Assembly (NCBI RefSeq): GCF_020991275.1
Contig: NZ_JAJLQY010000010.1
Coordinates: 1-64,000 of the forward strand
Length of the DNA: 64,000 nucleotides
Reading direction: 5' to 3'
From: Actinocorallia sp. API 0066
Lineage (GTDB): Bacteria; Actinomycetota; Actinomycetes; Streptosporangiales; Streptosporangiaceae
Shown here: positions 6,948-23,304 of the stretch, piece by piece
Layout: each line of letters begins with the position of its first letter
Numbering within the stretch: the stretch's first letter is position 1
Notes under the pieces: generated by a model
What the model was told of the DNA's origin: nothing
The model's database searches: none
What the model saw: only the letters and a program-made list of their open reading frames with translations
Made by a program: the position numbers and the translations under genes

Positions 6948-8174
6948 TCAAGCCTCCATGCCGTCGAGTTCGTGAACGTAGGAACGTGCGGGCGGCCGGC
7001 GCCGAGAGCGGCCGACGTACTCGTCGGCGAAGGCGACGGCGCTGCTTCCGGCCTCGGCCAGGCGCGTCAGGCTCGCGGTCCGGCGGCGGTGGTCGAACGC
7101 GGTCGCGTCCGCCGCGGGGTGGAACAGCCAGGTCAGCCAGGCCGAGAAGTCCTGGGCACGCCAGACGGCGGGCAGGCGCGCGGCCGAGTAGCCCTCGAGG
7201 GGACCCGCCTCACCACGGCGGAACCACCCGATGAGGGCGTGGGCGAGCACGCTCGCGTCCTCAAGCGCCACGTTCAGCCCCTTGGCGGCGGTGGGCGGGA
7301 AGATGTGGGCGGCGTCGCCCACGAGGAAGAGCCGCCCGAACTGCATGGGCTCCGCGACGGTGGCCCGGAGCGGAACCCTGACCTGTTCGAGGACCGCTCC
7401 CCGCGTCCGGCGGCCCTCCTCGACGTACAGCCGCTGCCACAGTTCGTCCCAGATCCGTTCATGGGGCCAGTCGCTCTGCTCGTCCCGGGCGTCGGTCTGC
7501 AGGTAGAGGCGGCTGACCTCGGGTGTGCGCATGCTCGCCAGGGCGAAGCCGCGCGCGTGCACGGAGTAGACCAGTTCGGACGCGAAGGGCGCCGCGCCGA
7601 CCAGCAGCCCGATCCAGTCGAACGGGTAGCGTCGGCTGTGGACCACGAGGGACGCCGTGGGGATGCTCGCGCGGGACACGCCGTGGTGTCCGTCGCAGCC
7701 GGCGATGAAGTCGGCCTCGACGACGACCTGTTCCCCGTCGGCCGTGAACGCGACCGAGGGGTGGTCGCCGGTGATCCCCGCGATCTGGACGTCCCGCGCG
7801 TCGAAGTGCAGCGAACCGTCGTCCGGCGGACGAGCGGCCAGCAGGTCCTTGACGACCTCCTGCTGGCCGTAGATGTAGGTCGGCTCACCGATCAGCGACG
7901 TGGTCGAGATCCGCTGAACGGTGTCGTCGAAGCGTAGTTGGAAACCGTCGTGTACCAGGCCCTGCCGGTCCAGCCGGTCGGCCAGCCCGGAACCGCGCAG
8001 CAGCCGGACCGTGCCCTCCTCGAGCAGCCCGGCCCGCACCCGCCGTTCCAGATGCTCGCGGCTGCAGCGCTCGACGACCACGGAGTCGACGCCGTGGGCG
8101 CGCAGCTCGTGTGACAGGTACAGCCCGGCCGGGCCGGCGCCGACGACCGCGACCTGGGTCCGCAGCGTCCTCAT
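6948..8174 (-). CDS. p-Hydroxybenzoate 3-hydroxylase (PobA)-like monooxygenase, possibly acting on p-aminobenzoate
   Basis: 408-aa flavoprotein of the PobA family. It has GxGxxG (VVGAGPAGLYLSHELR, 10-25), the PobA-type RVRAGLLEEGTVRLLR stretch (45-60), the GD motif (GDAAHIFPPTAAKGLN, 286-301) and substrate-site residues matching PobA Tyr201, Ser212, Arg214 and Tyr222 (here Tyr203, Ser214, Arg216, Tyr224). The second tyrosine of the proton relay (PobA Tyr385) is not conserved: the aligned stretch reads ASLTRLAEAG (367-376). PobA needs that tyrosine to deprotonate a phenol, and PABA has an amine instead, so hydroxylation of PABA ortho to the amine is a reasonable inference. Overlaps the pabAB stop by 4 nt (ATGA), so the two are co-translated. 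Confidence 0.85.
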   Translation of the reverse strand: MRTLRTQVAVVGAGPAGLYLSHELRAHGVDSVVVERCSREHLERRVRAGLLEEGTVRLLRGSGLADRLDRQGLVHDGFQLRFDDTVQRISTTSLIGEPTYIYGQQEVVKDLLAARPPDDGSLHFDARDVQIAGITGDHPSVAFTADGEQVVVEADFIAGCDGHHGVSRASIPTASLVVHSRRYPFDWIGLLVGAAPFASELVYSVHARGFALASMRTPEVSRLYLQTDARDEQSDWPHERIWDELWQRLYVEEGRRTRGAVLEQVRVPLRATVAEPMQFGRLFLVGDAAHIFPPTAAKGLNVALEDASVLAHALIGWFRRGEAGPLEGYSAARLPAVWRAQDFSAWLTWLFHPAADATAFDHRRRTASLTRLAEAGSSAVAFADEYVGRSRRRPPARSYVHELDGMEA

Positions 8175-10246
8175 CGCCGCTGCCGGTCCGGGTCCAGCAG
8201 GACGGCGCGGGCCTTGAGCAGCATCTCCTCGTACTCCTCGACCGGGTCCGAGTCGAGCACGATCGCGCCGCCCGCACCGATCAGGACCGCGTCGCGCCAG
8301 AAGACCGCCGTCCGGATCACGATGCTGAGGTCGGCCGACCCGTTGAACCCGAAGTAGCCGAGCGCCCCGGAGTAGACGCCGCGTGCCTCGGACTCCAGCC
8401 GGTCGGTGATCTCGACCGTCCGGAGTTTGGGCGCTCCGGTCATCGAGCCGCCCGGGAAGCACGCCTTCACGCAGTCGACGGCGCTCGCCGTCGGCCGCAG
8501 CCGCCCCCGGATCGTGGAGACGAGCTGGTGCACGGAGGAGTACGACTCGGTCGCCATGAACTTCGGAACGTGCACGCTCCCGACCTCGCACACCTGGCCG
8601 AGGTCGTTGCGCACGAGGTCGACGATCATGAGGTTCTCGGCCCGGGTCTTGGCGCTGCGGGTCAGCTCGAGCCGCCGGGACTCGTCGGTCGCGGGATCCT
8701 CGCTGCGTGCCGCGGTGCCCTTGATGGGTTTGCTCTCGACCATGCGGTGCCGGTCGATCCGCAGGAACCGTTCGGGTGAGGAGCTCAGGATCCGCAGCTC
8801 ACCGAACCGCAGGAACGCGCTGTAGGGAGCCGGGTTGGTGCGCCGCATCCGCAGGTAGAAGGCGAGATCGTCGTCCGGGGCCGCGGTCCGGAGCATGTTG
8901 GTCAGGCAGACCTCGTAGCTCTCGCCCTCCCGCAGTTTCCGCAGGCACTCGGCGATGTCGGAGAGATAGGTCTCCCGGTCCCGCACGAAGGACGCCGGGA
9001 CGTCCACGCCGGGGCTCGGGCCCGGCGCCGCCGGTACGGGCGCCGCCTTCTCGAGCGCGCCGACGGCCGAGGCCGTGCGGGCCAGCCAGGCGTCGGCCTC
9101 GGCGACGGACTCCGCCCCCGGCCGGCACAGCGCGACCAGGTAGGTCCGGTGCTCGACGTGGTCGACGACGATGATCCGGTCGGCGCGCATCCATGTCGCG
9201 TCGGGGGTCTCGGCCTTGTGGCGGTTGACGAAGCCGCAGTGCTCCTTCATCTCGTACCCGAAGTAGCCGACGTATCCGCCGTTGAAGTCGAACGGGAGGT
9301 CCAGCTCGACCCGCGATGCGGCCAGCCGTCGGCTCAGGAGGTCGAAGATGTTCCCCTCGACCAGGCTCTGGACGCCGTCCGCGGATTCCACGACGACCGC
9401 GTCGTCGGTCACCGAGTAGCTCAGCACCTCGCTGAGCGGGCCCGAGGCGTCGCCCAGATACGAGAACCGCGCCAGGCCGCGCTCGCAGCGGTTGCTGTCG
9501 AGCCAGAACGAGTGGGAGCTGTTCCCGTAGAGGCCGACGTAGACCGTCTCGGCGTCGACCTCGCGTTCCAGGGTCGACGTGCGGACGACGAGCGAGCCCT
9601 CGCCGTCCGGGCTGGCCGCCGACGGGCTGCGGTGCGCGGCACCGCGGCGCCGGGTCAGGTCCCGGAAGTTCTCGAGGATCCGGGCGCCGTGCTCGGTCGC
9701 CACCGACTCGGGGTGGAACTGCACGCCCCAGTGCGGTCGGCCGGTGTGGCGGACGCCCATGATCTCGCCGTCCTCGGCCCAGGCGATCGCCTCCAAGGAC
9801 GTCGAGTCCAGGGAGTCCACGGCGAGGGAGTGGTAGCGCACCCCGGTGAAGTTCTGGGGCAGTCCTTCGAAGACGTCCTTGTTCAGGTGGGTGACCCGCG
9901 AGAGGTGGCCGTGCCTCGGCTCTCCGGCCGGGCGCACTCTGGCGCCGTGGAACAGGGCGATGCCCTGGTGGCCGAGGCAGACTCCGAGCACCGGCAGGTC
10001 CGGCATCGACAGCAGCCGGGCGGTGTCACCAAAATCGCGCCTGTGCCCGGGATGACCGGGGCCCGGGGAGATCACGACGTTGTCGAACCGGGCGATGAAG
10101 GCGTCGTCCCCCAACACCGGGTCGTCATTGCGGACGACCACGGGTTCCGCGCCGTTGATCTGCGCGATCAACTGGAAGAGGTTGTAAGTGTAGGAATCGT
10201 AGTTGTCCACCAGCAGCGTGCGCACATTACCGAGAGGTGGCTTCAC
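8171..10246 (-). CDS. pabAB: Fused aminodeoxychorismate (p-aminobenzoate) synthase, PabA-PabB type
   Basis: About 690-aa fusion. The N-terminal third is a class I glutamine amidotransferase (LLVDNYDSYTYNL near residue 10; nucleophile in LGVCLGHQGIA; HPES triad). The rest is a chorismate-utilising PabB domain (ESKPIKGTAARS, ENLMIVDLVRNDLG, CFPGGSMTGAPK, GALGYFG). It converts chorismate and glutamine to 4-amino-4-deoxychorismate. The PIKG motif near the C-terminal domain is the PabB signature rather than the PIAGT of anthranilate synthases. Fusions of this kind are typical of clusters for PABA-derived antibiotics such as candicidin or aureothin. No PabC lyase is seen here. The start is uncertain: GTG 10246 with a GGGGGAA site, or GTG 10225. 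First gene of the leftward operon pabAB-pobA-like-FMO-PKS. Confidence 0.95.
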   Translation of the reverse strand: MKPPLGNVRTLLVDNYDSYTYNLFQLIAQINGAEPVVVRNDDPVLGDDAFIARFDNVVISPGPGHPGHRRDFGDTARLLSMPDLPVLGVCLGHQGIALFHGARVRPAGEPRHGHLSRVTHLNKDVFEGLPQNFTGVRYHSLAVDSLDSTSLEAIAWAEDGEIMGVRHTGRPHWGVQFHPESVATEHGARILENFRDLTRRRGAAHRSPSAASPDGEGSLVVRTSTLEREVDAETVYVGLYGNSSHSFWLDSNRCERGLARFSYLGDASGPLSEVLSYSVTDDAVVVESADGVQSLVEGNIFDLLSRRLAASRVELDLPFDFNGGYVGYFGYEMKEHCGFVNRHKAETPDATWMRADRIIVVDHVEHRTYLVALCRPGAESVAEADAWLARTASAVGALEKAAPVPAAPGPSPGVDVPASFVRDRETYLSDIAECLRKLREGESYEVCLTNMLRTAAPDDDLAFYLRMRRTNPAPYSAFLRFGELRILSSSPERFLRIDRHRMVESKPIKGTAARSEDPATDESRRLELTRSAKTRAENLMIVDLVRNDLGQVCEVGSVHVPKFMATESYSSVHQLVSTIRGRLRPTASAVDCVKACFPGGSMTGAPKLRTVEITDRLESEARGVYSGALGYFGFNGSADLSIVIRTAVFWRDAVLIGAGGAIVLDSDPVEEYEEMLLKARAVLLDPDRQRR

Positions 10247-10367
10247 TTCCCCCGCCGGATCCGCAGGGTGCAACGGGGCCTCCACACAACGATCGATTTC
10301 ACAGGAGAAGCAACGGATCAAATGCTCGCCGGGGGGCGGCCGGGCCCGCAAGCACCGGTAGGGCATT

Positions 10368-10579: not shown

Positions 10580-12004
10580 GTGCCTGATTTCACCAAAAAG
10601 GATCTCGTGGTCGGCACCGCATCCGGGCCAGTGCGCGGTTTTCTCGACCGGGGGGTGCCCCACTGGAGAGGCGTGCCCTACGCGCGGGTCGAGCGGCGTT
10701 TCCGTCCGGCGGTGCCGGTGGCGCCGGGCGGCCCGATCGAGGCCACCGCATGGGGACCGGTCAGCTGGCAGTTGCCGATCCAGGTGAGCCGGGGCCTCTA
10801 CCACCTCCCGCTGAACGGCCTTGTGGAGAACGAGGACTGCCTCAACCTGAACGTGTGGTCCCCTGGCCCGCGGCCGGACGGGCCCCTGCCGGTCCTGGTC
10901 TGGTTCCACGGAGGCAGCCGGGTGAACGGCAGTGCCAGTAGCTGGATCGACCCGTGGCACTTCGCCGCCCGGCACGGCGTCGTCGTGGTCACCGCGAACT
11001 ACCGCCTCGGCCCGTGGGGATGCCTCTACCTGGGCGGCCACGACCCGGACTTCGCCGACAGCGCCAACCTCGAGGCCCTCGACCAGGTCATGCTGCTGCG
11101 CTGGATCGGGGACAACATCGCCGGCTTCGGCGGCGACCCGGGCAACGTCACGCTGTTCGGCGTGTCCTCCGGCGGTTCCGACGTGGCGACGCTGCTCGGC
11201 ACGCCCGCGGCCCACGGCCTGTTCCACCGGGCGGCGATCTACAGCGGGAACGCCGAGGTGCCCGTGTCCGTGGAGGCCGCGGTGCGCTTCACCGACGAGT
11301 TCCTCGCGGCGGCCGGGCCGCTGGCGAAGTCGCCCGAGGACCTGGCCCGGCTCCCGAACGTGGGGCTGCGGTACATCCACGGGAAGCTGCTCCAACAGGG
11401 GGTCTCGGTCCGGTACCGGCCTTTTGTCGACGGCGCCGTCGTGCCCCGTCCGCCGCTCGAGACGATCCGCGCGGGGGGCGTCGCCGACGTGCCCCTGCTG
11501 GTATCGGTGACGTCGGACGAAGCCGGCATCTACGTCGCCATGGGCGACGTGGTCCTCGACCGCGTCTACAACGCGGTCGCCGCGGGTGAGACCCCGGCCG
11601 ACCTGGACGAGAAGACCAGGCTGCTCTCGAAGAAGTGCTTCTGGGAGCCCGCCGACCGGCTGCTGCGGGCCGCCCACCGATCCGGCGGGAAGGTGTGGCT
11701 GCAGAGGTTCTGCTACGCGCCGACCAATTCGAGCTTCGCGGCTGATTTTCCGGCCATGGCGGATCGCCCGGTGCACGGCACCGACATGGCGTCGTTGTTC
11801 GTCGACACCGAGGGAGGCGACGGGACGGAGACCGACCGGCTGGTGGGGGCGCGGGAGCAGAACGCCCTGATCACCCTGGCCCGGGAAGGCCGCCCGCCCT
11901 GGCCGGAATGGTCCCCGCGGACGCCGGTGACGCAGGAGATCACGGCGCCTTCCGCCGTCGTCGGTCGTATTTCCTTTTTATTCGAGCGGTGGATATGGGA
12001 GTAA
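10580..12004 (+). CDS. Type-B carboxylesterase
   Basis: 474-aa alpha/beta hydrolase of the carboxylesterase/lipase type-B family. It has the EDCLNLNVW signature (about 92-100), an oxyanion-hole region (VWFHGGS), the nucleophile elbow GVSSGGS (about 196-202), the acid region SDEAG and a catalytic His region (PVHGTDMASLF). No signal peptide, so cytoplasmic. GTG start with GGAG upstream; it overlaps a 15-codon mini-ORF beginning at ATG 10540. The MFS gene follows 4 nt after the stop. In a polyketide locus it could hydrolyse an ester or act in self-protection or product maturation; the substrate is unknown. Confidence 0.9.
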   Translation: MPDFTKKDLVVGTASGPVRGFLDRGVPHWRGVPYARVERRFRPAVPVAPGGPIEATAWGPVSWQLPIQVSRGLYHLPLNGLVENEDCLNLNVWSPGPRPDGPLPVLVWFHGGSRVNGSASSWIDPWHFAARHGVVVVTANYRLGPWGCLYLGGHDPDFADSANLEALDQVMLLRWIGDNIAGFGGDPGNVTLFGVSSGGSDVATLLGTPAAHGLFHRAAIYSGNAEVPVSVEAAVRFTDEFLAAAGPLAKSPEDLARLPNVGLRYIHGKLLQQGVSVRYRPFVDGAVVPRPPLETIRAGGVADVPLLVSVTSDEAGIYVAMGDVVLDRVYNAVAAGETPADLDEKTRLLSKKCFWEPADRLLRAAHRSGGKVWLQRFCYAPTNSSFAADFPAMADRPVHGTDMASLFVDTEGGDGTETDRLVGAREQNALITLAREGRPPWPEWSPRTPVTQEITAPSAVVGRISFLFERWIWE

Positions 12005-12008
12005 TTCG

Positions 12009-13484
12009 ATGACGTCGACCACCTCGAACCAGGGCGAGAAAACGCAGAACCAGCCAGGGCGGGGGCGGTGGCTGGTCTTCGCCGTACTGGCCTTCACCCA
12101 GTACCTGATGACGCTGGACACCAGCATCGTTTTTGTGGCGCTGCCGTCGATCCAGACCGACCTGCACTTCACCCAGACCGGGCTCGCGTGGGTCACGAAC
12201 GCCTTCATTCTCGCCTTCGGCGGCTTCCTGATGCTGGGTGGACGAGCGGCGGACATCTTCGGCCGGCGCAGGACGCTGACCATCGGCCTGGTGCTGATGG
12301 GCGTCGCGTCGCTGGCCGGCGGGCTGGCGACGGAGCCCTGGCACATCATCACGGCCCGGGCCGTGCAGGGCCTGGGCAGCGCGCTGGTGCTGCCCGCCAC
12401 GATGGCGCTGGTGCTGGACATCTTCGAGCCGGGGCCGGAGCGCCACAAGGCCCTGGCCATTCTGGGCGGCCTCGGCGGGCTCGCCGGAGCGACCGGCACG
12501 GTCTTCGGTGGTCTGCTCACCTCGATCGCCTGGCAGGCGGCGTTCCTGGTGTACGTCCCGATCATCGTCCTGGTGCTGGTGTTCGGCATGCGGATCGTGC
12601 CCGCCGGCACGACGACCGCCACCGGCGGCATCGACGTGTGGGGTGCCCTGACCAGCACCGGCGGACTGACCCTCCTGCTGTACAGCATCCTGGAGGGCAG
12701 CAACAAGGGCTGGACCTCGGGTGCCACGCCGGGCGCCTTCGCCGCCGCGGTGGTGCTGCTCGCGGCGTTCGTCGTGCGGCAGCGCCAGGCCGCCACGCCG
12801 CTGATCCCCCCACGGTTGCTGCGGATGCGCAACGTCGTCTTCGGCAACCTGGTCAACCTGGTGCTCGGCGCGCTGCTCCTCGGGGTCTTCTTTGTGCTGA
12901 CCCTGCACCTGCAGGGCGAGCGCGGCTACTCGCCCGTGGTGGCGGCCCTGCTGACCGCGCCGATCGGCCTGGCGATGTTCGCCGGCGCCAGCGTCGTGGT
13001 CCGGCTCCTCGCCCGGGTCACCCCGGCCACCGCGCTGATCATCGCGTTCACGATCCAGGCGGTCGGCCTGGTGTGGTGGGTGGGAGTGCTCGACGTGCAC
13101 GCCAACATCGTGCTGTCCTTCGTCCTGCCCGGCGTCCTGTACACCTTCGGGGTCGGACTGGCGATCGTCCCCTCGGTCATCGTCTGCACCACCGGCGTCG
13201 AGGGGTACATGATCGGTGCGGCGTCGGGGTTGAACAACACCACCCTGCAGATGGGCGGCGCGATCGGTGTCGCGTTCCTGAGCACGCTGAGCCAGCACCG
13301 GTACGGCAGGGCGCTGGCCGACGGCGTCGGCGCGGCGGAGGCCGGCAACAGCGGCCACGCCTGGGGGCTGGCCGGCGGTGTCGGCCTGGCCGCCACCGGC
13401 CTGGTGCTGGCCCTGGTGCTGCGGGCCGGCGCCCGAGGCCAGCAGCCCCCGGCCGACTCCGAGCCCGCCCGACCCGACGCCTAG
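12009..13484 (+). CDS. MFS drug:H+ antiporter, DHA2 (EmrB/QacA) type, 14 TM
   Basis: 491-aa integral membrane protein. It has the DHA2-type N-terminus (FTQYLMTLDTSIVFVALPSI), motif A after TM2 (GGRAADIFGRRRTL) and a long run of hydrophobic helices consistent with 14 segments. This family exports amphipathic drugs and polyketides at the cost of proton influx. It lies 4 nt after the esterase gene, so the two are one operon, and it is transcribed towards the LAL regulator. The likely role is efflux of the region A product. Confidence 0.92.
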   Translation: MTSTTSNQGEKTQNQPGRGRWLVFAVLAFTQYLMTLDTSIVFVALPSIQTDLHFTQTGLAWVTNAFILAFGGFLMLGGRAADIFGRRRTLTIGLVLMGVASLAGGLATEPWHIITARAVQGLGSALVLPATMALVLDIFEPGPERHKALAILGGLGGLAGATGTVFGGLLTSIAWQAAFLVYVPIIVLVLVFGMRIVPAGTTTATGGIDVWGALTSTGGLTLLLYSILEGSNKGWTSGATPGAFAAAVVLLAAFVVRQRQAATPLIPPRLLRMRNVVFGNLVNLVLGALLLGVFFVLTLHLQGERGYSPVVAALLTAPIGLAMFAGASVVVRLLARVTPATALIIAFTIQAVGLVWWVGVLDVHANIVLSFVLPGVLYTFGVGLAIVPSVIVCTTGVEGYMIGAASGLNNTTLQMGGAIGVAFLSTLSQHRYGRALADGVGAAEAGNSGHAWGLAGGVGLAATGLVLALVLRAGARGQQPPADSEPARPDA

Positions 13485-13889
13485 TCGCGTGTCACCGAGC
13501 CTTTTTCACCGTCGGCACGGAATACGAGCCAGGAAATCCACACGAATCGATCGACTGGTTCGACGCCCTTTCGGCCTGGACTGAATTCTGTCCGAAGACG
13601 GCCACGTCGTTATCCGATTCGGAAACCGCCACGCCCTTCCGCGAGCCTTCACCGTCCTGCTCCTCCATCACATCGATCACCGCTTCACCATGCGCACCGC
13701 GCCCGACCCCGGCTCTCGATGACCGTTTCCCACTCGCCGCGCCGCTCCGCCACATTCCGTCACCACGACCACCACCCTGACGGCAGCCGAATACGCGGCC
13801 CTCCCTCAGATCTCCGAAGACCGCGCGCGGCCGCCTTGACGATCGAGACCTGTTTGTGTCTTTATTTTTCCGGGAATAGGGGGGGTTGC
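13485..13889 (+). promoter_or_regulatory. 405-bp intergenic region with probable promoter of the LAL gene
   Basis: No convincing gene: the leftward frame here has low third-position GC for this genome. Near the right end TTGACG (13836-13841) is followed after 17 nt by TCTTTA (13859-13864), a plausible -35/-10 pair ending about 25 nt before the LAL start, which has an AGGGGGG ribosome site. The TAGGGGG at 13877 belongs to that ribosome site and is not an operator copy. Confidence 0.4.
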
Positions 13890-16625
13890 ATGAGGTTGTA
13901 CGAGCGGGATCAACCGTTGTCCAACCTGGTGGCGCTCTTCGCGGAGAGCCGGCTCGGTCAGCAACGGACAGTGATACTGACCGGCGCGGTGGGAACCGGC
14001 CGGACAGAGATGGTCCGGACCCTCGCCCGGGACGCGGTGGGCGCGGGCGCACTCCACTGCGCGGCCGCGACCTGCAGGTTGGACCACGCCCTCCCCTTCG
14101 GCACCATCTGGCAGCTCTTCATCAACCCGGGACTGCCGGAGAAGACGCGCAGGCGGGCGGCCCAACTCCTGAACTCAGAGGTCGCCCGGACCCCGCTCGA
14201 CACCGACGGCGCCGCGGACCGGAGCCTCGATCAGAACCTCGCCTACATCTCCCACATCCTGAGCGGTCTCCTGATGGACGTGATCGAGGAGACCGGCCGT
14301 CCGCTCCTGCTGACCGTCGACGACGCCCACCACGCCGACCCGGCGTCCCTGCACTGCCTGCTGGCGATCACCGCACGGCTGCGGCACTTCCCGCTCATGG
14401 TCGTCGTCAGCGCCGTCGACGGGCCCCAGTCGTTCAGCCCGGCGTTCCTGGGCGGGCTGCCGGCGGCACCGTACTGCCGTCACCTCCGGCTCGACCTGCT
14501 GACCGAGCGCGGTGTGGAGAGCATGCTGGCCGAGCACCTCCCCGACGCCGCGGCCCGGCGGGTCGCCGCGGAGTGCCACGCCCTGACCGGCGGCAACCCG
14601 GTCATGGTGCGCGGTTTCGCCGACGACCACCGCCGATCCGTCGAGGACGCCGGGCCGCTCGGACCGGAGACCATGCGCGCCTGGACACGCATCCTCCACC
14701 GGTGCGATCCCACCATGCTCCGGCTGGCCCGGTGGACGGCCGTCCTCGGGGAGTCGGGGACCCCGTCGATGGGCGGGCGCCTCGCCGGCCTCAAGGACGA
14801 GGCGACCTCCCGGACCCTGAGGGCGCTCGACCGGACCGGCTGCTTCGTCGGCGGCCGGTTCCGGCACCCCTCGCTCCGCCAAGCCGTCCTGGACGCCCTG
14901 GCCCCGGCGGAGCAGGCGGCCATGCACGCCGAGGCGGCGGCCCGCTTCCAGACCGAGGGCGCCTCCGTCCTCGTCGTCGCCGACCATCTCGTCGCGGCCG
15001 GGGAGCCCCAGGCCACCTGGGCGGTCCCGGCCCTGAACGAAGCAGCGGAACAGGCCCTGTCCCAGGGACGGGTGAACCGGGCCCTCACCTATCTTCGGCT
15101 CGCCCACGGGATCCCGGCCCCGGACCCCCACCACGAGGTCTCGCGGGCCCTCCTGGCGCGGGCGGAATGGCGGACCGACCCCGCCCTGACCATGCGGCAC
15201 GGAGCCGAACTGGTCGCGGCCCTGCGGTCCGGCGCCGATCCCGGCGGGCCGGACCTCCCGGCCTGGGCGGGCCGCCTGATCTGGTTCGGCCGCGAGCACG
15301 ACGCACGCGCGGCGATCGAGCGGCTCGGCGACCGAAAGCACGCCCTCGACGAGTCCCAGGCCGACCAGCTCGAGTCCCTGCGGCTGGGCCTGTCCTGCCT
15401 GTTCCCCACAGGCGAGGGGCCTGGGCGGACCGTCAGCGTGCCCGCCGAGAACAGGGAGGCGGCGGCGACGGCCGACCTTCTGGGGCAGGCCCTCGGGCTG
15501 CTGGTCAGGACTCTGCGGAACGGTCCAGGCGAGTCGACGGCCGCCGCCGAACACCTCGTCGAACAGAGCCCGCTCGGCGAGCGCACCTTCGGGGCGCTCG
15601 CCTGCGCCCTCGGCGCCCTCATCTACGGCGGGGAACTCGGCACCGCCGACCGGTGGTGTGCGTCCCTGGAGGGGGATGCCGCCGCGGCGGAGGCGCCGAC
15701 CTGGCTGGCGGTACTGGCCGCCCTCCGGTCGAGGATCGCCCTGCGGCAGGGCGATCCGGTCACCGCGCAGACGCACGCCGGCCGCGCCCTGGACCTGGTC
15801 CCGGCCGAGAGCTGGGGCGTCGGGGTCCTCCTCCCGCTCAGCGTGCTCATCGACGCCACAACGATGACGGGCCTGTATCAGGAGGCACTCACCCATCTGC
15901 GCACCCCCGTGCCCGACGTCCTGCACAAGACGCCCCTGGCGATCCCGTACCTGCGGGCCCGCGCCCGCTTCCACGCCGCGAGGGGAAGGCTCCACCGGGC
16001 GCTGAGCGAGATCGACACCGTCTCCGAGCTGGTGGCCCGATGGGACCTCGACCGGCCCGCGCTGGCGCCCTGGCGGACCGACGCCGCGCTCGTCCACCTG
16101 GAACTCGGATGCCGGGAGGAGGCCCGTCGCCTGGCGGTCGAGCAGTGGGAGATGCTCGCGCCGACGGAGGCCCTGGAACGGGGGATCACCCTGCGCGTGC
16201 TGGCCGCCGCCGGCGACCCGGCCAAGCGGCTCACCCGCCTGGAGCAGTCGGTGCGCGAACTCCGCAGGTCCGGCGACCGCTTCGAGCTCTCGCTCGCGCT
16301 GGTCGACCTGGGCCGGGTCCAGCCGGACGGAAGCGGTTCCCCGGTGCACCGGATCGCCGACCCCGACCGCGACGGGCACGAGGACGAGCCGGACATCGCC
16401 GTCGCGTGGGAGCCGTTCCAGGTCCTGACCAAGGCGGAACTCAGGGTGGCGGCACTGGCCGCCTACGGCCACAGCAACCGGCAGATCGCCAGCAAGCTCT
16501 TCATCACGATCAGCACGGTCGAGCAGCACCTCACCAGGGTGTACAGCAAGCTCAACGTCCGCCGCCGGAACGATCTGCCGATCCTGCCCGACGGTTCCGA
16601 ACTGACCGACGGGCTGCCCGCGTAA
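13890..16625 (+). CDS. LAL-family (large ATP-binding LuxR) transcriptional regulator
   Basis: 911-aa regulator. It has an N-terminal P-loop region (TGAVGTGRTEM, 31-41), Walker B (LLLTVDDAHHAD), a long TPR-like helical middle and a C-terminal LuxR helix-turn-helix (LTKAELRVAALAA, then NRQIASKLFIT and STVEQHLTRVYSKL). LALs are pathway-specific activators of type I PKS clusters (PikD, RapH, NysRI). Odd point: the invariant P-loop lysine is arginine (Arg38), so ATP use may be altered. The ATG was chosen because of the adjacent AGGGGGG site. The three TAGGGG elements nearby are its likely targets. Confidence 0.92.
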   Translation: MRLYERDQPLSNLVALFAESRLGQQRTVILTGAVGTGRTEMVRTLARDAVGAGALHCAAATCRLDHALPFGTIWQLFINPGLPEKTRRRAAQLLNSEVARTPLDTDGAADRSLDQNLAYISHILSGLLMDVIEETGRPLLLTVDDAHHADPASLHCLLAITARLRHFPLMVVVSAVDGPQSFSPAFLGGLPAAPYCRHLRLDLLTERGVESMLAEHLPDAAARRVAAECHALTGGNPVMVRGFADDHRRSVEDAGPLGPETMRAWTRILHRCDPTMLRLARWTAVLGESGTPSMGGRLAGLKDEATSRTLRALDRTGCFVGGRFRHPSLRQAVLDALAPAEQAAMHAEAAARFQTEGASVLVVADHLVAAGEPQATWAVPALNEAAEQALSQGRVNRALTYLRLAHGIPAPDPHHEVSRALLARAEWRTDPALTMRHGAELVAALRSGADPGGPDLPAWAGRLIWFGREHDARAAIERLGDRKHALDESQADQLESLRLGLSCLFPTGEGPGRTVSVPAENREAAATADLLGQALGLLVRTLRNGPGESTAAAEHLVEQSPLGERTFGALACALGALIYGGELGTADRWCASLEGDAAAAEAPTWLAVLAALRSRIALRQGDPVTAQTHAGRALDLVPAESWGVGVLLPLSVLIDATTMTGLYQEALTHLRTPVPDVLHKTPLAIPYLRARARFHAARGRLHRALSEIDTVSELVARWDLDRPALAPWRTDAALVHLELGCREEARRLAVEQWEMLAPTEALERGITLRVLAAAGDPAKRLTRLEQSVRELRRSGDRFELSLALVDLGRVQPDGSGSPVHRIADPDRDGHEDEPDIAVAWEPFQVLTKAELRVAALAAYGHSNRQIASKLFITISTVEQHLTRVYSKLNVRRRNDLPILPDGSELTDGLPA

Positions 16626-16671: not shown

Positions 16672-16858
16672 GGGCGGGCCCGCCACCCCTTCATGGACGG
16701 ATTACGGCGAATCCGGGAGGTGAAAACAGGGGTTCCCGAATCTCGCTGGACCGGGCCAGCATAAAGGCCGTTCGGTGCCTCGCGATCGACTCTCGCTGAT
16801 CGGGCGTGAAGAAGCGAAGAAGCCCTGGACCGTGAACCGACGAGAGAATGAGGAAAGC

Positions 16859-18031
16859 ATGACAGACGAGCTTCTGCCGCTTGCCGATCTCACCATCATC
16901 GATCTCTCCACCGTTCTGGCCGGCCCTTTCGCCGCGCAGGTGCTCGCCGATTTCGGCGCCAGAGTGATCAAGGTCGAACACCCGGCGGGCGACCCGATGC
17001 GCCGTTTCGGCCCGTCGGTCGACGGCGCCCCGCTCTGGTGGAAGGTCCTGAACCGGAACAAGCAGGGGATCGCCATCAACCTGAGCACGCCCGACGGCGC
17101 GGCCGAGTTCCTGCGGATCGCGGCCACGGCCGACGCCGTGATCGAGAACTTCCGTCCCGGCACGCTGGAGCGGTGGGGGATCGGCCCGGAGAAGCTGAAG
17201 GAGGTCAACCCCGACCTCGTCCTGACCCGGATCACCGCCTTCGGTCAGCAAGGCCCGTACTCCCCGCGTCCCGGATTCGGCACGCTGGCCGAGGCCATGG
17301 GTGGCGTCGCCGCCCTCGCGGGCGGGCCCGACGGCCCACCGGTCCTCCCCGGATACCAGCTCGGCGACGCCCTGGCCGGCCTCTACGGCGCCTGCGCCAC
17401 CCTCATCGCGCTGCACGCCCGCGGCCGCATCGGGCACGGGCAGATCGCGGACGTCGCGATCACGGAGGGCGTCATCAGCCTCATGGGAGGGCACTTCGCC
17501 GTCCACGAGAAGCTCGGCGTCAGGCCGGGCGACGAGGCGCCCACCGCCCCCCGGAACGTCTACCGCTGCCGGGACGGCCGCTGGGTCGCCCTCTCGGCCC
17601 CGGTCACCCTGGTCGCCCAGCGCCTCCTGCGGCTCGTCGGACGAAGCGACCTCGCCGACCAGCCCTGGTTCCAGGAGGGCAGCGGACGAGGAGCCCACCG
17701 GGCCGAGATCGACGAAGCGGTGGCCAAGTGGATCGCCGACCGCGACCGCGACGAGGTGCTCGCGGCCGTCGAGCGGGCCGAGGCCGCCGCCGCGCCGGTC
17801 TACGACATCGAGGACATCCTCGAGGATCCGCACTTCCGGGACCGTGACACGCTGGTGCACGCCCCCGACACCGAACTCGGCTCGATCATCATGCCCAACG
17901 TCGCGTTCCGGCTCTCGGCCACTCCCGGGCGCGTCCGGCACGCCGGCCCCCGGCTGGGCGCGGACACCGAGGAGATCCTCCGGGCCGTCGCAGAGCACGA
18001 GAGACACCGGGGCGAGGAGCGGACGGCGTGA
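16859..18031 (+). CDS. Class III (CaiB/BaiF, formyl-CoA-transferase-like) CoA-transferase
   Basis: 390-aa protein of the CaiB/BaiF family. It has the N-terminal LADLTIIDLSTVLAGPFAAQ, the ARVIKVEHPAGDPMRR segment, NRNKQGIAINL, and the conserved aspartate in QLGDALAGLYGA that forms the aspartyl-CoA intermediate in the family. It moves CoA from one acyl-CoA to another carboxylate. ATG start with GAGGAAAG upstream. Its end overlaps the next gene by 4 nt (GTGA). First gene of the five-gene operon 16.9-22.3 kb. By context it would activate a (di)carboxylic acid for the CitE-like lyase; the actual acid is unknown. Confidence 0.92.
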   Translation: MTDELLPLADLTIIDLSTVLAGPFAAQVLADFGARVIKVEHPAGDPMRRFGPSVDGAPLWWKVLNRNKQGIAINLSTPDGAAEFLRIAATADAVIENFRPGTLERWGIGPEKLKEVNPDLVLTRITAFGQQGPYSPRPGFGTLAEAMGGVAALAGGPDGPPVLPGYQLGDALAGLYGACATLIALHARGRIGHGQIADVAITEGVISLMGGHFAVHEKLGVRPGDEAPTAPRNVYRCRDGRWVALSAPVTLVAQRLLRLVGRSDLADQPWFQEGSGRGAHRAEIDEAVAKWIADRDRDEVLAAVERAEAAAAPVYDIEDILEDPHFRDRDTLVHAPDTELGSIIMPNVAFRLSATPGRVRHAGPRLGADTEEILRAVAEHERHRGEERTA

Positions 18032-18906
18032 ATCCTCCCCAGACGGAGCATCCGGTCTTCAGAAGCTGCCTCTACGTGCCGGGTCACCAGGCACGTCTCA
18101 TCGAACGGGCCTACGAGTCCGAAGCCGACACCGTCATCCTCGACCTCGAGGACGCGGTACCGCCCTCCGAGAAGGCACGGGCCCGGGAGACCGTCGCGCG
18201 CGTCACCGCGGCGGCGACCCCCAAGCCGACCTTCGTGCGGGTGAACTCCATGGCGTCGGGACGCGCCGAGGACGACGTGCGGGCGGTGGCGGGTCCCGGG
18301 CTGAGCGGGGTCCGGATGGCGAAGGTCGCCCGCCCGGAGGACGTGCGGCAGCTCGTCACGCTGCTGGCCCAGGCCGGGTGCCCGGTTCCCGTCCACCTGC
18401 TCATCGAGACCGCGCACGCGCTGGAAACCGCCTTCGACCTGGCCACGTCCTCCCCCTCGGTCGCCATGATCAGCCTCGGGGAGTCCGACCTGTGCGCGGA
18501 TCTTCGGATCACGGCCGAGAGCCCCACGATGGACGCGTGCCGCAGCCGCGTCGTCATCGCGTCGCGGGCGGCCGGCCTGCCGAGCCCCTGCCAGAGCGTG
18601 TCCACCGACATCCACGACACCGACGCCCTGCTCCGCACCAGCCGAAGCGCCAAGGCACTCGGCTTTGTGGGGCGGATGGCCCTGCATCCCGCGCAGATCC
18701 CCGCCATCCACGAGGTGTACACACCGACGGCCCAGGAGATCGCCGACGCCCAGGCGGTCTTCCGCACCCCGGAACTCGCGCGGGAAGCCGACCGGTCCGT
18801 CGTCCTGAACGAACGCGGCGGCGTCATCGCCCCGCCCATCCTGGCGAACGCGAGGAACGTCCTGCGGCTCGCCGAAGCCCTCAGCCTTCTCGAGGCCCCC
18901 GCATGA
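18028..18906 (+). CDS. HpcH/HpaI (CitE-like) acyl-CoA lyase
   Basis: 292-aa TIM-barrel protein of the CitE/malyl-CoA lyase family. It has an acidic metal/substrate motif (VILDLEDAVPPSEK, about 36-49), a CoA-site arginine region (FVRVNSM), IETAHALE, and SLGESDLCADL. Members cleave or form beta-hydroxyacyl-CoA thioesters (malyl-CoA, beta-methylmalyl-CoA, citramalyl-CoA). GTG start within the CoA-transferase stop. Transferase plus CitE lyase is the usual pair in C5-dicarboxylate (itaconate/citramalate) and malyl-CoA pathways. Here the two sit in a polyketide locus, so either starter/extender supply or recycling is possible. Confidence 0.9.
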   Translation: MNPPQTEHPVFRSCLYVPGHQARLIERAYESEADTVILDLEDAVPPSEKARARETVARVTAAATPKPTFVRVNSMASGRAEDDVRAVAGPGLSGVRMAKVARPEDVRQLVTLLAQAGCPVPVHLLIETAHALETAFDLATSSPSVAMISLGESDLCADLRITAESPTMDACRSRVVIASRAAGLPSPCQSVSTDIHDTDALLRTSRSAKALGFVGRMALHPAQIPAIHEVYTPTAQEIADAQAVFRTPELAREADRSVVLNERGGVIAPPILANARNVLRLAEALSLLEAPA

Positions 18907-19745
18907 GCACACCCGCGGTAGCGCCGCCGGACGCCCTGCTCGGCGCCGTCCTGGCCGGTGTCGAGGTCTTCGACCTGGCCCAGCCGCTGGCCGACGGCAT
19001 GCCCTGCTCACCCAACCATCCCGGCTTCAAGATGTCCCTGACCAGGCGCCACGGCGACATGGTCCGCGCCGACGGCGGCTCGGCCGCCAGCGAGATCATC
19101 GTCATCGGAGGGCACGTGGGGACGCACATCGACGCCCTCGCGCACGTCTCCCACAAAGGCCGGCTCTTCGGGGACGTCGACTGCGCCGAAGCGCAGGTGG
19201 GAGGCAGATTCACCACCCACGGCGTGGACACGATCCCGCCGATGGTCTGCCGGGGGGTGCTGCTCGACATCGCGGCCCGGCACGGTGTCCCGGCCCTGCC
19301 CGCAGGCTACGGAATCACCGCGCGGGACCTCGACGACGCCGCCGAGCGGGTCGGCGTGCGACCCACCCCGGGCGGCGTCTGCCTGGTCCACACCGGCTGG
19401 AGCCGGTGGTGGGACGACCCCGTCGCCTACCTCGGCGTGCGGACCGGGGTGCCTGGACTCACCCCGGACGCGGCCCGGTGGCTGGCCGCACACCAGGTCG
19501 TCGCGGCCGGCGCCGACACGACAGCCTTCGAGCAGATCCACCCGGAGCGGGGGCACGCCGTCATGCCGGTCCACCGCATCCTCCTGGTCGAGCACGGCAT
19601 CCACATCATCGAGCACATGCGGCTCACCGAACTGGCGGAGCAGGACGTGGCCGAGTTCACCTTCATCCTGTCCCCACTGAAGATCGTCGGAGGCACCGGG
19701 TCTCCCGTGCGTCCACTCGCGATCGTGAGCCGTCCCCGTGACTAG
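18903..19745 (+). CDS. Cyclase-family metal hydrolase (KynB/kynurenine formamidase-like)
   Basis: 280-aa protein with the family metal motif HxGTHxDxxxH (GGHVGTHIDALAHVSH, about 74-89), a fold used for Mn/Zn-dependent hydrolysis of amides or lactams such as N-formylkynurenine and isatin. ATG overlaps the previous stop, and the 3' end overlaps the next GTG by 8 nt. The proline that usually follows the DxP of formamidases is Leu here. The substrate is not predictable. With the pathway built on aminobenzoate, an N-acyl aromatic amine is one candidate. Confidence 0.85.
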   Translation: MSTPAVAPPDALLGAVLAGVEVFDLAQPLADGMPCSPNHPGFKMSLTRRHGDMVRADGGSAASEIIVIGGHVGTHIDALAHVSHKGRLFGDVDCAEAQVGGRFTTHGVDTIPPMVCRGVLLDIAARHGVPALPAGYGITARDLDDAAERVGVRPTPGGVCLVHTGWSRWWDDPVAYLGVRTGVPGLTPDAARWLAAHQVVAAGADTTAFEQIHPERGHAVMPVHRILLVEHGIHIIEHMRLTELAEQDVAEFTFILSPLKIVGGTGSPVRPLAIVSRPRD

Positions 19746-21210
19746 CGCACAGGCTCGGGGCGGGCTCCTCGACGAGGTCGCCGACTTCGCCGCCCACGTG
19801 GTCGAGGCCGGGCTGCCGGAAGACCGGCTCCGGCACTCCATGCGGGCGGTCTTCGACACGGTCGGCGTCATGGTCCGGGGCTCGGCCCAGCCCCTGTCGT
19901 CGACCGTCGCCCAGGCCGCCCGGCACTGGGGCCGGGACGAGTCCGCCTCGGTGATCGGCGCCGGGCTCCGCGCGCCGGTCGGCACCGCGGCGTTCGTCAA
20001 CGGGACGTTCGCGCACTGCCTGGACTTCGACGACACCCACCTGCCGTCGGTCCTGCACCCGAGCGCGTCGGTCGTTCCCGCCGCCCTCGCCGTCGGCGAG
20101 GCCGTCGGAGCCACCGGTCCACGGACCCTCGCCGCGATCGCCGTGGGGAACGAGTTCTGCATCCGGCTGGGAATGGCCGGGTACGACACCGAGAACGCCA
20201 ACTCGATCTTCTTCGACCGGGGGCAGCACGCCACGTCGATCTGCGGCACCCTGGGCGCCGCCGTCGCGGCCGCGATGCTGCTGTCCGGCGAATCGCCCAC
20301 GATCGCCGCCGCGGCGTCGATCGCCGCGAGCATGGGATCGGGGATCATCGAATGCAACCGGACCGGCGGCACGGTGAAGCAGATCCACACCGGGTGGGCG
20401 GCCCACTCCGGGATCGCGGCCGCGCACCTGGCCGCGTCCGGCATCACCGGTCCGCCCACCGCCCTCGAAGGCCGGTTCGGCTTCTTCGAGGCGTTCTGCG
20501 GCCCCCGGGCGCATCCGAAGACCGTCACCGAGGACCTCGGCCGCCACTGGCACTCCGACGCGCTGCGCATCAAGCCGTACCCGTGCAACCTCTTCACCCA
20601 CGCCGGAATCGACGCGGCCGTCGAACTCCTTGAGCGCGGGGTGCGGCCGGAGGAGATCACCGCGCTCAGGCTCGGCGTCCCCGAGCCGGTGCTGAGGACG
20701 ATCGCGGAACCCGTCGCGGTGAAGGCCGCACCTGCCAGCGGATACGCGGGGGCCTTCTCCGGTCCGTACACCGTCGCCGCGGCCCTGCACGGAGGAGGCG
20801 GACTCGCCCTGTACATCGACGACTTCACCGACCAGGCCGTCCGCCGCCCGGAGGTACTGGCCCTGGCCGCGAAGGTCACGTGCTACGCCGACCCGGAATG
20901 CACGTCGCTCTTCCCCGTGCGGATGCCTGCCAGACTCACCGCCCACCTCGCGGATGGCCGCGTCGAGGAGGCGCTCTGCCTCGACAGCCGAGGCGGCCCA
21001 CGGCGGCCGCTGACCGACGAGGAACTCGCCCTCAAGTTCGGCCTGAACCTCTCCCCCACCCTGGACGAGGCGTCAGCCCGGCATCTACGCGAAGAGATCT
21101 TCCAGCTCACCGACCGGTCAACACCGCGGTCGATCATGCGCCTGCTGGCACGACCAGGAGGCGCCGACCCCAGCAACCCGGAGGAAACCCATGGCGGAAA
21201 CCGCCTTTGA
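19738..21210 (+). CDS. MmgE/PrpD-family protein
   Basis: 490 aa. Family features include NGTFAHCLDFDDTHLPSVLHP (about 84-104), the GTLGAAVAAAML helix, an HTGWAAHSGIAAAHLA segment and KPYPCNLFTHAGIDAA. The family contains 2-methylcitrate dehydratase and cis-aconitate decarboxylase (itaconate forming). GTG start inside the upstream gene; it overlaps the next gene by 20 nt. Combined with a CoA-transferase and a CitE-like lyase it suggests handling of a tricarboxylic or branched C5-C7 acid; the direction (making or breaking) is not visible. Confidence 0.9.
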   Translation: MTSAQARGGLLDEVADFAAHVVEAGLPEDRLRHSMRAVFDTVGVMVRGSAQPLSSTVAQAARHWGRDESASVIGAGLRAPVGTAAFVNGTFAHCLDFDDTHLPSVLHPSASVVPAALAVGEAVGATGPRTLAAIAVGNEFCIRLGMAGYDTENANSIFFDRGQHATSICGTLGAAVAAAMLLSGESPTIAAAASIAASMGSGIIECNRTGGTVKQIHTGWAAHSGIAAAHLAASGITGPPTALEGRFGFFEAFCGPRAHPKTVTEDLGRHWHSDALRIKPYPCNLFTHAGIDAAVELLERGVRPEEITALRLGVPEPVLRTIAEPVAVKAAPASGYAGAFSGPYTVAAALHGGGGLALYIDDFTDQAVRRPEVLALAAKVTCYADPECTSLFPVRMPARLTAHLADGRVEEALCLDSRGGPRRPLTDEELALKFGLNLSPTLDEASARHLREEIFQLTDRSTPRSIMRLLARPGGADPSNPEETHGGNRL

Positions 21211-22297
21211 CACGCGGTGGAACATCCTCGACCCGGCCGTCCGCCCGACGGATCCGCACCAGTACCTCCGCGCCGCCGTCCAGTGGCACTTCGGGGAGGC
21301 GACGGGGTCGAGATTCTGGCTGGAGCGGGCCAAGGACCTCGACTTCGACCCGCTGACCAGCATCCACGGCTACGACGACCTGCGGCGGTTCCCGAACATC
21401 GTCGACGAACTGCGGGACGTTCCGGTCGAGGACCTCATCCCGCGCGGCTACGGCCCCCGCCCGCCGGCCCCGCGCGTCTTCGAGAGCGGCGGCACCACCG
21501 GGGCGCCCAAGCGCGTCATCCTGATGCCGGACTGGTTGGAGAGCGCGCTGGACCGGATGGAGAAAGGGCCGCAGTTCTCCGGGCGGCCGCCGTCGAACAT
21601 CCTGGTCGCCATGCCGACCGGCCCGCACAAGGCGGGAAGCCTCTACGACGACATCGCCGCGCGGCAGAACTTCGTCAAGTTCAGCATCGACATCGACCCG
21701 CGCTGGGTGAAGAAGCTGATCGGCCGGGGCGAGAACGAGCAGGTCCAGGCGTACGTCGAGCACGTCCTGGACCAGATCGAGCACGTGCTGAGCAGCCAGC
21801 ACGTCGGGATGCTGGTCATCACGCCGCCGCTCCTGCTCGCCTGCGCACGGCGGCCGTCGCTCGTCGACCTGATCAACGCCAAGATCGACCTCATCACCTG
21901 GGGCGGCGCCCACATGACCCTCGACCAGCGGTTCGAACTCGAACGGGTGACCTTCCCCAAGGCCCGGTTCCTCAGCCGGTACAGCAGCGCCCTGATCCTC
22001 GAGGGATCCCGGCAGCGGCCCGGCACCAGCCTGGACGAGGAGATCGTCTACGACCCGGGCAGCCCGGTCGTCACGTTCCTGGTCGTCGATCCGGCGACCG
22101 GCGAGCCGGTCCCGTACGGGCGGCGCGGCCAGGTGGTCATGAACCACATCAGCAAAGGCATGTTCCTGCCGAACAACCTCGAACGCGACACCGCGATCCG
22201 GGTTCCCGGACCGCCCGGCCAGATCGGCGACTCGGTCTCGGCTCCCCAACCGGTGGAGACCTTCGGCGGCGAGGAGGTCATCGAGGGGATCTACTAG
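21191..22297 (+). CDS. EhpF-like short acyl-adenylating enzyme
   Basis: 368-aa member of the ANL (adenylate-forming) superfamily, recognised by the P-loop VFESGGTTGAPKRV (about 97-110) and the N-terminal FDTRWNILDPAVRPTDP also seen in proteins annotated as phenazine antibiotic biosynthesis enzymes (EhpF type). It is much shorter than a typical CoA ligase of about 500 aa or more: it ends soon after a VVDPATGEPVPYG region and lacks the C-terminal subdomain with the catalytic lysine. It may adenylate an aryl acid, or be a non-catalytic homologue. Last gene of the operon, overlapping the MmgE/PrpD gene. Confidence 0.75.
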   Translation: MAETAFDTRWNILDPAVRPTDPHQYLRAAVQWHFGEATGSRFWLERAKDLDFDPLTSIHGYDDLRRFPNIVDELRDVPVEDLIPRGYGPRPPAPRVFESGGTTGAPKRVILMPDWLESALDRMEKGPQFSGRPPSNILVAMPTGPHKAGSLYDDIAARQNFVKFSIDIDPRWVKKLIGRGENEQVQAYVEHVLDQIEHVLSSQHVGMLVITPPLLLACARRPSLVDLINAKIDLITWGGAHMTLDQRFELERVTFPKARFLSRYSSALILEGSRQRPGTSLDEEIVYDPGSPVVTFLVVDPATGEPVPYGRRGQVVMNHISKGMFLPNNLERDTAIRVPGPPGQIGDSVSAPQPVETFGGEEVIEGIY

Positions 22298-22371: not shown

Positions 22372-23304
22372 ATGGCTCCCCCTGAACGGACAACAGTCGC
22401 AGGGCTCCTGGATCGCACTCGGGACGGCATCCTGCTCTACAGCATGACCCCGCCACGGCAGGCCATCACCCCCGAACAGGCCGACGCCGTCGCCTCCGCC
22501 GCCCTGACCCGGTTGGCGTCGGTGCGGGTCGACGGGCTCATCCTCTACGACGTGGACGCCGAGGCCGACCGGGCCGAGGCGCCGCGGCCGTTCCCGTTCA
22601 TGCCGATGATGGACCCGGCCCGCTTCCTCGACGACCACCTCGCCGACTGGGCCGGGCCGGTCATCGTCTACCGCGCCGTCGGCAAGTACACCGGCGACGA
22701 ACTGGACCTCTGGTGGACGAACGCCGACCGCGACCGGGTGCTGACCGTCCTGGTCGGCGCGGCCTCCCGGCACCAGGCCGTCCGGACGAGCCTTTCCGAC
22801 GCCTACCGCCGGCACGCCGGGCACCCGTTCCCGCCGCGGATGGGCGGCGTGGCCATCGCCGAACGGCACGCCTCCTCAGGCGCCGAGCACGCGCGCATGC
22901 TGCGCAAACAGGACGCCGGCTGCGAGTTCTTCGTCTCCCAGGTCTGCTACGACCTGGACCACACCCGCGACCTGCTGTCCGACTACGCCCACGGCTGCCG
23001 CGACCGCGGCCTGGACCCAAAACCGGTGGTGCTGACCCTGGCCCCGTGCGGGTCGGTGAAGACCCTGGAGTTCATGGCCTGGCTCGGCATCGCCGTCCCG
23101 CGCTGGCTCCAGGCCGAGATCACCCGCGGCGACGCCCTCACCGCCTCGTACGAGCAGTGCCTCCTCAACGCCCAAGCCCTGATCGCCTACTGCCGCCGCC
23201 TCGCCCTACCGTTCGGCATCAACGTCGAAAGCCTCACCAACCGCAAACGCGAGATCGACGCCTCCATCGAACTCACCCGAGAGATCCGCGCCCTCCTACC
23301 CTGA
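22372..23304 (+). CDS. Methylenetetrahydrofolate reductase-like TIM-barrel protein
   Basis: 310 aa resembling the MTHFR-like flavin/folate barrel: a short RTRDGILLYSMTPP start, a FFVSQVCYDLDHTRDLL segment, VVLTLAPCGSVKTLEFMAWLGI, and INVESLTNRKREI near the C-terminus. ATG start. It stands 74 nt after the EhpF-like gene but has its own spacing and no overlap, so it may be outside region A. A role in one-carbon supply is possible but not shown. Confidence 0.65.
   Translation: MAPPERTTVAGLLDRTRDGILLYSMTPPRQAITPEQADAVASAALTRLASVRVDGLILYDVDAEADRAEAPRPFPFMPMMDPARFLDDHLADWAGPVIVYRAVGKYTGDELDLWWTNADRDRVLTVLVGAASRHQAVRTSLSDAYRRHAGHPFPPRMGGVAIAERHASSGAEHARMLRKQDAGCEFFVSQVCYDLDHTRDLLSDYAHGCRDRGLDPKPVVLTLAPCGSVKTLEFMAWLGIAVPRWLQAEITRGDALTASYEQCLLNAQALIAYCRRLALPFGINVESLTNRKREIDASIELTREIRALLP

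Follow-up and report, generated by a model that had tools for sequence, protein, structure and literature searches.

Five overlapping genes and a nearby esterase

We analysed a 64,000-nucleotide stretch of the genome of Actinocorallia sp. API 0066 (contig NZ_JAJLQY010000010.1; hereafter the window), in which five open reading frames (ORFs), all on the plus strand, fill positions 16859–22297. In order, this cassette encodes a type III (CaiB/BaiF) coenzyme A (CoA) transferase (16859–18031; PF02515, 389 bits), a CitE-like (HpcH/HpaI) CoA-ester lyase (18028–18906; PF03328, 124 bits), a metal-dependent hydrolase of the Cyclase family that resembles KynB and isatin hydrolase (18903–19745; PF04199, 105 bits), an MmgE/PrpD-family protein (19738–21210; PF03972, 187 bits, and PF19305, 112 bits) and an EhpF-like adenylating enzyme (21191–22297; 282 bits to EhpF in the PDB over residues 16–368). 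An earlier note, made from the sequence alone, had named these five families, and comparisons with Pfam and the PDB bear the names out at the superfamily level. Its claim that the genes overlap at every junction likewise agrees with the coordinates, successive ORFs sharing 4, 4, 8 and 20 bases. An alternative, longer CoA-transferase starting at a GTG codon at 16775 is possible. Third-position GC content is 0.90–0.95 in each of the five ORFs, and the GC content of the window is about 70%. Genes were called with a simple GC-position heuristic, and several neighbouring genes (FkbH-like, PabC-like, housekeeping) were named by eye. The automatic pick returned four of the five cassette genes and preferred two antisense frames over the hydrolase ORF, which is nonetheless real on the grounds of its open frame and clear homology.

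A sixth gene belongs to the unit. It encodes a type B carboxylesterase (10580–12004, plus strand; PF00135, 226 bits) with relatives in the PDB that include Est50 and p-nitrobenzyl esterase, and its GxSxG motif is present in all five copies that accompany the cassette. Because the carboxylesterase sits near the cassette in all five genomes, the limits 16859–22297 are slightly narrow. Solved structural relatives exist for every fold among the six proteins.

Specific functions were judged by the NCBIfam equivalog cut-offs, a score below the cut-off leaving a protein at the family level. Every equivalog score of the five cassette proteins fell far under its cut-off, and no specific function was reached. 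The CoA-transferase is placed in the type III family by its PF02515 score and Asp170; it does not reach the substrate-level equivalogs, with the mesaconate CoA-transferase cut-off far off. The CitE-like lyase scores 129 bits against the RipC equivalog (cut-off 375), and the hydrolase, which has isatin hydrolase and kynurenine formamidase among its PDB relatives, scores 44 bits against the KynB (arylformamidase) cut-off of 223. For the PrpD-like protein, we rejected an identity as 2-methylcitrate dehydratase (37 bits against a cut-off of 950; 24 bits to the solved enzyme). Its scores to the solved structures of cis-aconitate decarboxylase (120 bits) and iminodisuccinate epimerase (117 bits) are nearly equal, and six active-site-type residues, for which we assume the roles and the ACOD1 numbering, are kept in all five cassettes. 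The EhpF-like protein aligns over its whole length, residues 16–368 of 368 matching 17–369 of 369 of PDB entry 3hgu (E 6.5e-83; the EhpF entries matched are 3hgu and 3l2k), and gave no Pfam match at E ≤ 0.001; EhpF presumably lacks the usual C-terminal domain.

The cassette and the itaconate/citramalyl-CoA degradation pathway (CoA-transferase, hydratase, RipC-type lyase) have a CoA-transferase and a CitE/RipC-like lyase in common. However, the cassette contains no hydratase and adds the PrpD, Cyclase-family and EhpF members. With the hydratase missing and the equivalog cut-offs far from reached, we rejected this pathway in its plain form.

One lineage in five genomes

Peptide patterns taken from one protein, the hydrolase, were scanned against the genomes of 84,980 species and returned 77 loci; distant cassettes can be missed by such a scan. 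Some of the 77 lie on short contigs and some come from near-duplicate species, and the counts given here are of loci rather than independent events. An EhpF gene was present in four, those of Streptomyces sp. ISL-10 (L081), Frankia R82 (L082), Streptomyces sp. A 4/2 (L083) and Gandjariella thermophila (L084), and a type B carboxylesterase in exactly the same four. The cassette is thus known from five genomes, including that of the window and with Frankia (R82/G379) counted once. The gene set and order are identical in the four further genomes, a recurrence that takes the order beyond chance. A search for EhpF in 394 genomes of the class found one near copy beyond the window's own, that of Frankia R82 (84% identical), the next being at most 54% identical. 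EhpF relatives occurred in 28 records of a plasmid collection, all under 60% identity, and the viral_contigs scan contained none. A limited literature search found no described cluster with this gene set.

In all five gene trees (77 rows for the hydrolase, 74 for PrpD, 66 for the CoA-transferase, 45 for CitE and 33 for EhpF), the five cassette copies make up one side of a single branch, with supports of 98, 99, 92, 100 and 100/100, respectively. The trees of the first four enzymes were quick ones carrying only SH-aLRT (approximate likelihood-ratio) supports, among which the 92 of the CoA-transferase lies under the program's mark of 95, and all trees were midpoint-rooted. The cassette stem is 0.71 long in the CitE tree and 0.19 in the hydrolase tree. 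Judged by these trees, the five-gene form is one lineage, associated with at least two kinds of polyketide synthase (PKS) cluster. The proposal that the five genes act as a unit is strengthened by the order and linkage kept in five genomes and by the single clade in each gene tree. A methylenetetrahydrofolate reductase-like gene that begins 74 bases past EhpF (22372–23304, plus strand; weak PF02219, 25.6 bits) gave no match in any of the 77 fetched loci at E ≤ 1e-10; absent at the other four cassette loci, it probably lies outside the unit and was dropped from it.

The surroundings of the cassette in the window belong to a PKS cluster of the 4-aminobenzoate (PABA) type. The minus strand carries the start of a type I PKS (1–5700; Pfam), in which a CoA-ligase–acyl carrier protein (ACP) loading region is followed by ketosynthase, acyltransferase and dehydratase domains before the contig end cuts it off. 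It is accompanied on the same strand by a flavin adenine dinucleotide (FAD)-dependent monooxygenase (5769–6947; PF01494), a PobA-like relative of 4-hydroxybenzoate 3-monooxygenase (6948–8177; PRK08243, 478 bits, cut-off 351; 412 bits against the TIGR02360 equivalog, under its cut-off of 539) and a fused PabA–PabB aminodeoxychorismate synthase (8171–10366), which exceeds the cut-off of the pabB equivalog TIGR00553 (345 bits against 328). On the plus strand lie a major facilitator superfamily (MFS) transporter of the surrounding cluster (12009–13484; PF07690) and, directly upstream of the cassette, a large ATP-binding regulator of the LuxR family (13719–16625; PF13191, PF00196).

Three genomes, those of the window, ISL-10 and Frankia, share the PABA-type loading PKS cluster and carry the cassette within it in differing gene arrangements, so its membership of such a cluster, as the earlier note had it, holds in three genomes with rearranged flanks. 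The esterase gene is upstream of the cassette in the window; in ISL-10 it lies downstream on the opposite strand, and in Frankia it follows the cassette directly. The Frankia contig carries the PKS start, the FAD monooxygenase, the PobA-like gene, PabAB, the five cassette genes and the esterase at 75–87% identity to the window. The FAD monooxygenase was found at E ≤ 1e-90 in one of 392 genomes of the ISL-10 genus group and in two of 394 genomes of the class; its carriers in the sampled genomes, ISL-10, the window's genome and Frankia, each have the cassette. Among the four other cassette loci, only ISL-10 has a copy of the LuxR regulator upstream of the cassette (77% identical). The window's MFS transporter has a 78% identical copy on ISL-10 contig C46, and the transporter neighbouring the Frankia cassette is just 38% identical. 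In ISL-10, a berberine-bridge-type FAD oxidase (L081:13460-15013; PF01565, PF08031) lies between EhpF and the esterase; by eye, its leader is twin-arginine-like.

The pairing with a PABA-type PKS is not constant. In Gandjariella, whose contig begins about 7 kb before the cassette, a type II ketosynthase is encoded about 8 kb away from it. In Streptomyces sp. A 4/2, where no PKS was seen within 20 kb, the unit stands amid housekeeping-looking genes together with a cytochrome P450 and an MFS transporter; the Gandjariella cluster has a transporter 55% identical to the latter, and the P450s are 30% identical. Neither genome gave a match to the fused PabAB above 35% identity. The Gandjariella type II ketosynthase is 74% identical to one in the window at 54815–56086. 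The latter belongs to a type II cluster about 32 kb from the window's cassette, with sugar genes and a regulator in between; this cluster conceivably makes a second type II association. The type II ketosynthases of ISL-10 and Frankia are on contigs other than those of the cassette. The window's type II cluster (28506–56086) comprises a ketosynthase pair, an ACP, cyclases, SnoaL-like proteins, deoxyaminosugar genes and an EryCIII-like glycosyltransferase, and is apparently separate from the PABA PKS cluster.

A widespread core operon and an unpartnered EhpF

The remaining 73 loci lack EhpF, and in none of them do EhpF and the esterase stand alongside the other four genes. The CoA-transferase, hydrolase and PrpD genes lie within 6 kb of one another in 57 of the 73, and all four core genes, that is with a CitE-like gene added, in 35. 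In 16, the four share the order and strand of the cassette, whose homologous genes thus keep the order of this core operon. Core operons occur in Actinomycetota, Chloroflexota, Acidobacteriota and Bacillota, and the copies near the hydrolase are 35–65% (hydrolase), 40–59% (PrpD), 44–54% (CoA-transferase) and 31–46% (CitE) identical to those of the cassette. From this spread, we infer that the core operon is older than the five-gene form; since the trees are midpoint-rooted, the order of events follows from spread only. The novelty claimed for the gene combination therefore divides: the joining of the core with EhpF and the esterase is new, and the core itself is widespread. As a set, the five genes are genuine, coherent and rare; what is out of the ordinary is the five- or six-gene form, not the core.

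The neighbours of the core operon are of another kind than those of the cassette. Dihydropyrimidinase/allantoinase-like hydrolases were found at 58 of the 73 loci, IclR regulators at 29, flavocytochrome-c-type FAD dehydrogenases at 13 and EutA-like proteins at 12, followed by NitT-type permeases (11), isochorismatase-like hydrolases (9), molybdenum hydroxylases (7), PrpB-like proteins (7), branched-chain amino acid-type permeases (6) and Asp/Glu racemases (6). At the cassette loci, none of the ten types was detected at E ≤ 1e-15. Because IclR and dihydropyrimidinase-like genes accompany it, the core operon looks like one for the catabolism of a cyclic amide or N-heterocycle; a limited literature search found neither a described role nor a name for it. 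The earlier note had held that its idea of a biosynthetic module would fall if the cassette proved common away from PKS loci with a proven catabolic role. Half of this applies, in that the core is common; its catabolic role is deduced from neighbours. One core operon (L097) comes from a record labelled as a Bifidobacterium breve metagenome-assembled genome, which the hydrolase tree places with two environmental actinobacterial metagenome-assembled genomes; it is possibly a mislabelled bin.

That the core is common at loci without EhpF, and that no PKS was seen near one of the five cassettes (A 4/2), could mean that the cassette is a catabolic operon that lies beside PKS clusters by accident. 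We regard such hitchhiking as improbable, given that three genomes from different families, with different gene arrangements, link the cassette to the same cluster, and given the restriction of EhpF and the esterase with the core to the cassette loci.

The residues that we checked are largely invariant between the two forms. These counts cover the rows in which more than 70% of the gene's length was found no further than 6 kb from the hydrolase, and the catalytic roles of the checked CoA-transferase, CitE, hydrolase and PrpD residues are those we assume from the families. Asp170 of the CoA-transferase is kept in 5/5 cassette copies and 61/61 other aligned copies, and Arg71, Glu127 and Asp154 of CitE in 5/5 and 40/40, respectively. 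His71, His75, Asp77 and His81 of the hydrolase are kept in all five cassette copies. One checked tyrosine of PrpD is phenylalanine in 18 of 69 core copies; nearly all other checked residues are the same.

What sets the cassette EhpF apart is the gene next to it. We examined the 28 best-scoring non-cassette EhpF loci (L023–L050, actinobacterial) from the search of 394 genomes; lower-scoring EhpF relatives, among them distant proteins on contig C38 of A 4/2 (34%) and contig C336 of Frankia (37%), fall outside this set. An aldehyde-dehydrogenase-family gene adjoins EhpF at 27 of the 28, and the sole miss lies 128 bases from a contig end; two of the 27 partners were scanned with Pfam, and the others match one of these at 45–67% identity. 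By contrast, no such partner lies near EhpF at any of the five cassettes. An EhpG-type partner was not found anywhere in the genomes of the window, A 4/2 or Gandjariella at E ≤ 1e-15, and ISL-10 and Frankia have one EhpG-type gene each, beside a second EhpF on another contig. EhpF is described as adenylating a phenazine acid, which EhpG then reduces. With the partner missing, we rejected an aldehyde-forming EhpF–EhpG role for the cassette; if EhpF acts as described, its acyl adenylate must have some other destination within the cassette. The whole-length alignment links the cassette EhpF to the EhpF–EhpG system of the D-alanylgriseoluteic acid (phenazine) pathway and its many actinobacterial relatives, which differs in its aldehyde-dehydrogenase partner. 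Within the portions of the sources consulted, ehpF (AMP-binding) adjoins ehpG (aldehyde dehydrogenase family) in the phenazine operon (PMC11278526), and the proteins EhpF to EhpO, minus EhpJ, are described as converting phenazine-1,6-dicarboxylate into the antibiotic (PMC3175449).

Possible roles and the polyketide scaffold

We tentatively propose that the five genes and the carboxylesterase form a transferable sub-pathway by which a small acid is built, activated and joined to a scaffold. The four core enzymes would interconvert the acid, probably of an unsaturated or hydroxylated dicarboxylic type, and its CoA thioester. CitE would form or cleave a carbon–carbon bond that links a 2-oxo acid to an acyl-CoA, PrpD would act through dehydration, decarboxylation or isomerisation, and the hydrolase would open or close a cyclic amide, lactone or anhydride. 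EhpF would then adenylate the acid and the esterase-fold protein couple it to a scaffold hydroxyl (or trim it off), the outcome being a unit that furnishes and attaches a side group on different scaffolds. Supply is favoured by the position of the cassette in biosynthetic clusters and by the absence of the catabolic entry genes. The cassette occurs with two types of scaffold, one from the PABA-loading PKS, for which a GdmF-like amide synthase is encoded on a separate contig, and one from a type II PKS (Gandjariella). A more specific form of the proposal, which we consider doubtful, is that the unit is a scaffold-independent, horizontally moving acylation sub-pathway, in which catabolic enzymes were captured once and joined by an EhpF freed from its reductase and by an esterase-fold transferase, and which attaches an undescribed dicarboxylate-derived group to both PABA-primed, amide-synthase-released (ansamycin-like) and type II aromatic polyketides. 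A lead on how such a unit might work is the dialkylmaleic anhydride sub-pathway of tautomycetin, which we liken to it by product rather than by gene content. Tautomycetin is given in the part of PMC6560455 consulted as a linear polyketide esterified with a C8 dialkylmaleic anhydride.

Several observations weigh against a supply role. Cassette-specific alignment columns number none in the CoA-transferase, one in CitE (alanine to serine, beside the metal-ligand aspartate), none in the hydrolase and two in PrpD. With the checked residues kept and so few specific columns, the chemistry of the four core enzymes is probably little changed from that of the core operon, which fits unchanged catabolism as well as synthesis. 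Among the genes seen, the esterase fold is the one acyltransferase candidate that all five loci share and, in A 4/2, no gene within 20 kb on either side matches the PKS or ketosynthase proteins of the window.

The same kinship to a catabolic-type core and the very few cassette-specific substitutions favour disposal, which we consider nearly as likely as supply. In such a unit of salvage, self-protection or recycling, the acid would be released by the esterase, whether from the product, from an intermediate or from a compound of outside origin. It would be activated by EhpF and the CoA-transferase, reshaped by the hydrolase and PrpD, and cleaved by CitE, which would feed an acyl-CoA and a 2-oxo acid into central metabolism. 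This is a serious possibility, in keeping with the dihydropyrimidinase-like, IclR and uptake-type permease genes around the core relatives and with the A 4/2 unit, which has an MFS transporter and a P450 and no PKS. It is countered by the lack of dihydropyrimidinase-like, FAD dehydrogenase and IclR genes at every cassette locus, and by the cassette's presence in one and the same cluster in three genomes whose flanks differ in arrangement, with the adjoining LuxR regulator common to two.

Were the supply reading true, a breakdown-type operon would have been co-opted as a block by biosynthetic clusters across scaffolds, in the manner of deoxysugar cassettes, and EhpF, nearly always beside an aldehyde dehydrogenase at the other loci examined, would have a second role. 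Were disposal true, the unit would be a portable means of acyl group removal. Either way, the six genes offer a compact genome-mining handle for clusters as yet untested, and the widespread core operon has been brought to light.

The scaffold of the PABA-type cluster can be outlined from other contigs. In the window's genome, similar PKS modules occur on contigs C1, C15, C17, C18 and C20, with ketosynthases 84–88% identical to the first, and we infer that they belong to one PKS. After the PKS on C1 (L166, G000:C1:1-20000) come genes for a GdmF-like amide synthase (118 bits), an O-methyltransferase, an ACP, an acyl-CoA dehydrogenase and a ketosynthase III (KSIII)-like protein; the matching ISL-10 contig (L176, G488:C46) also encodes a 3-hydroxyacyl-CoA dehydrogenase, together with proteins named FkbH-like and PabC-like by eye. 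These genes suggest a PABA-primed macrolactam with methoxymalonyl-type extension, and the product is perhaps ansamycin-like, with PABA rather than 3-amino-5-hydroxybenzoate as the primer.

Supply of an unusual starter or extender to this PKS would agree with the linkage of cassette and PKS in three of five genomes, yet we give it the least credence of the readings considered. The PKS owns a loading ligase, and a methoxymalonyl-type set, recognised by eye, lies beside the amide synthase on the other contig. Two of the five cassette loci are without a PABA PKS or PabAB, which makes such supply unlikely. Among the uses once suggested for the cassette (starter, extender, side group or recycling), the side group and recycling both remain. 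The KSIII-like protein (L166:10410-11372), encoded near the methoxymalonyl-type genes and 95% identical in ISL-10, has by eye an active-site cysteine and could be an acyltransferase.

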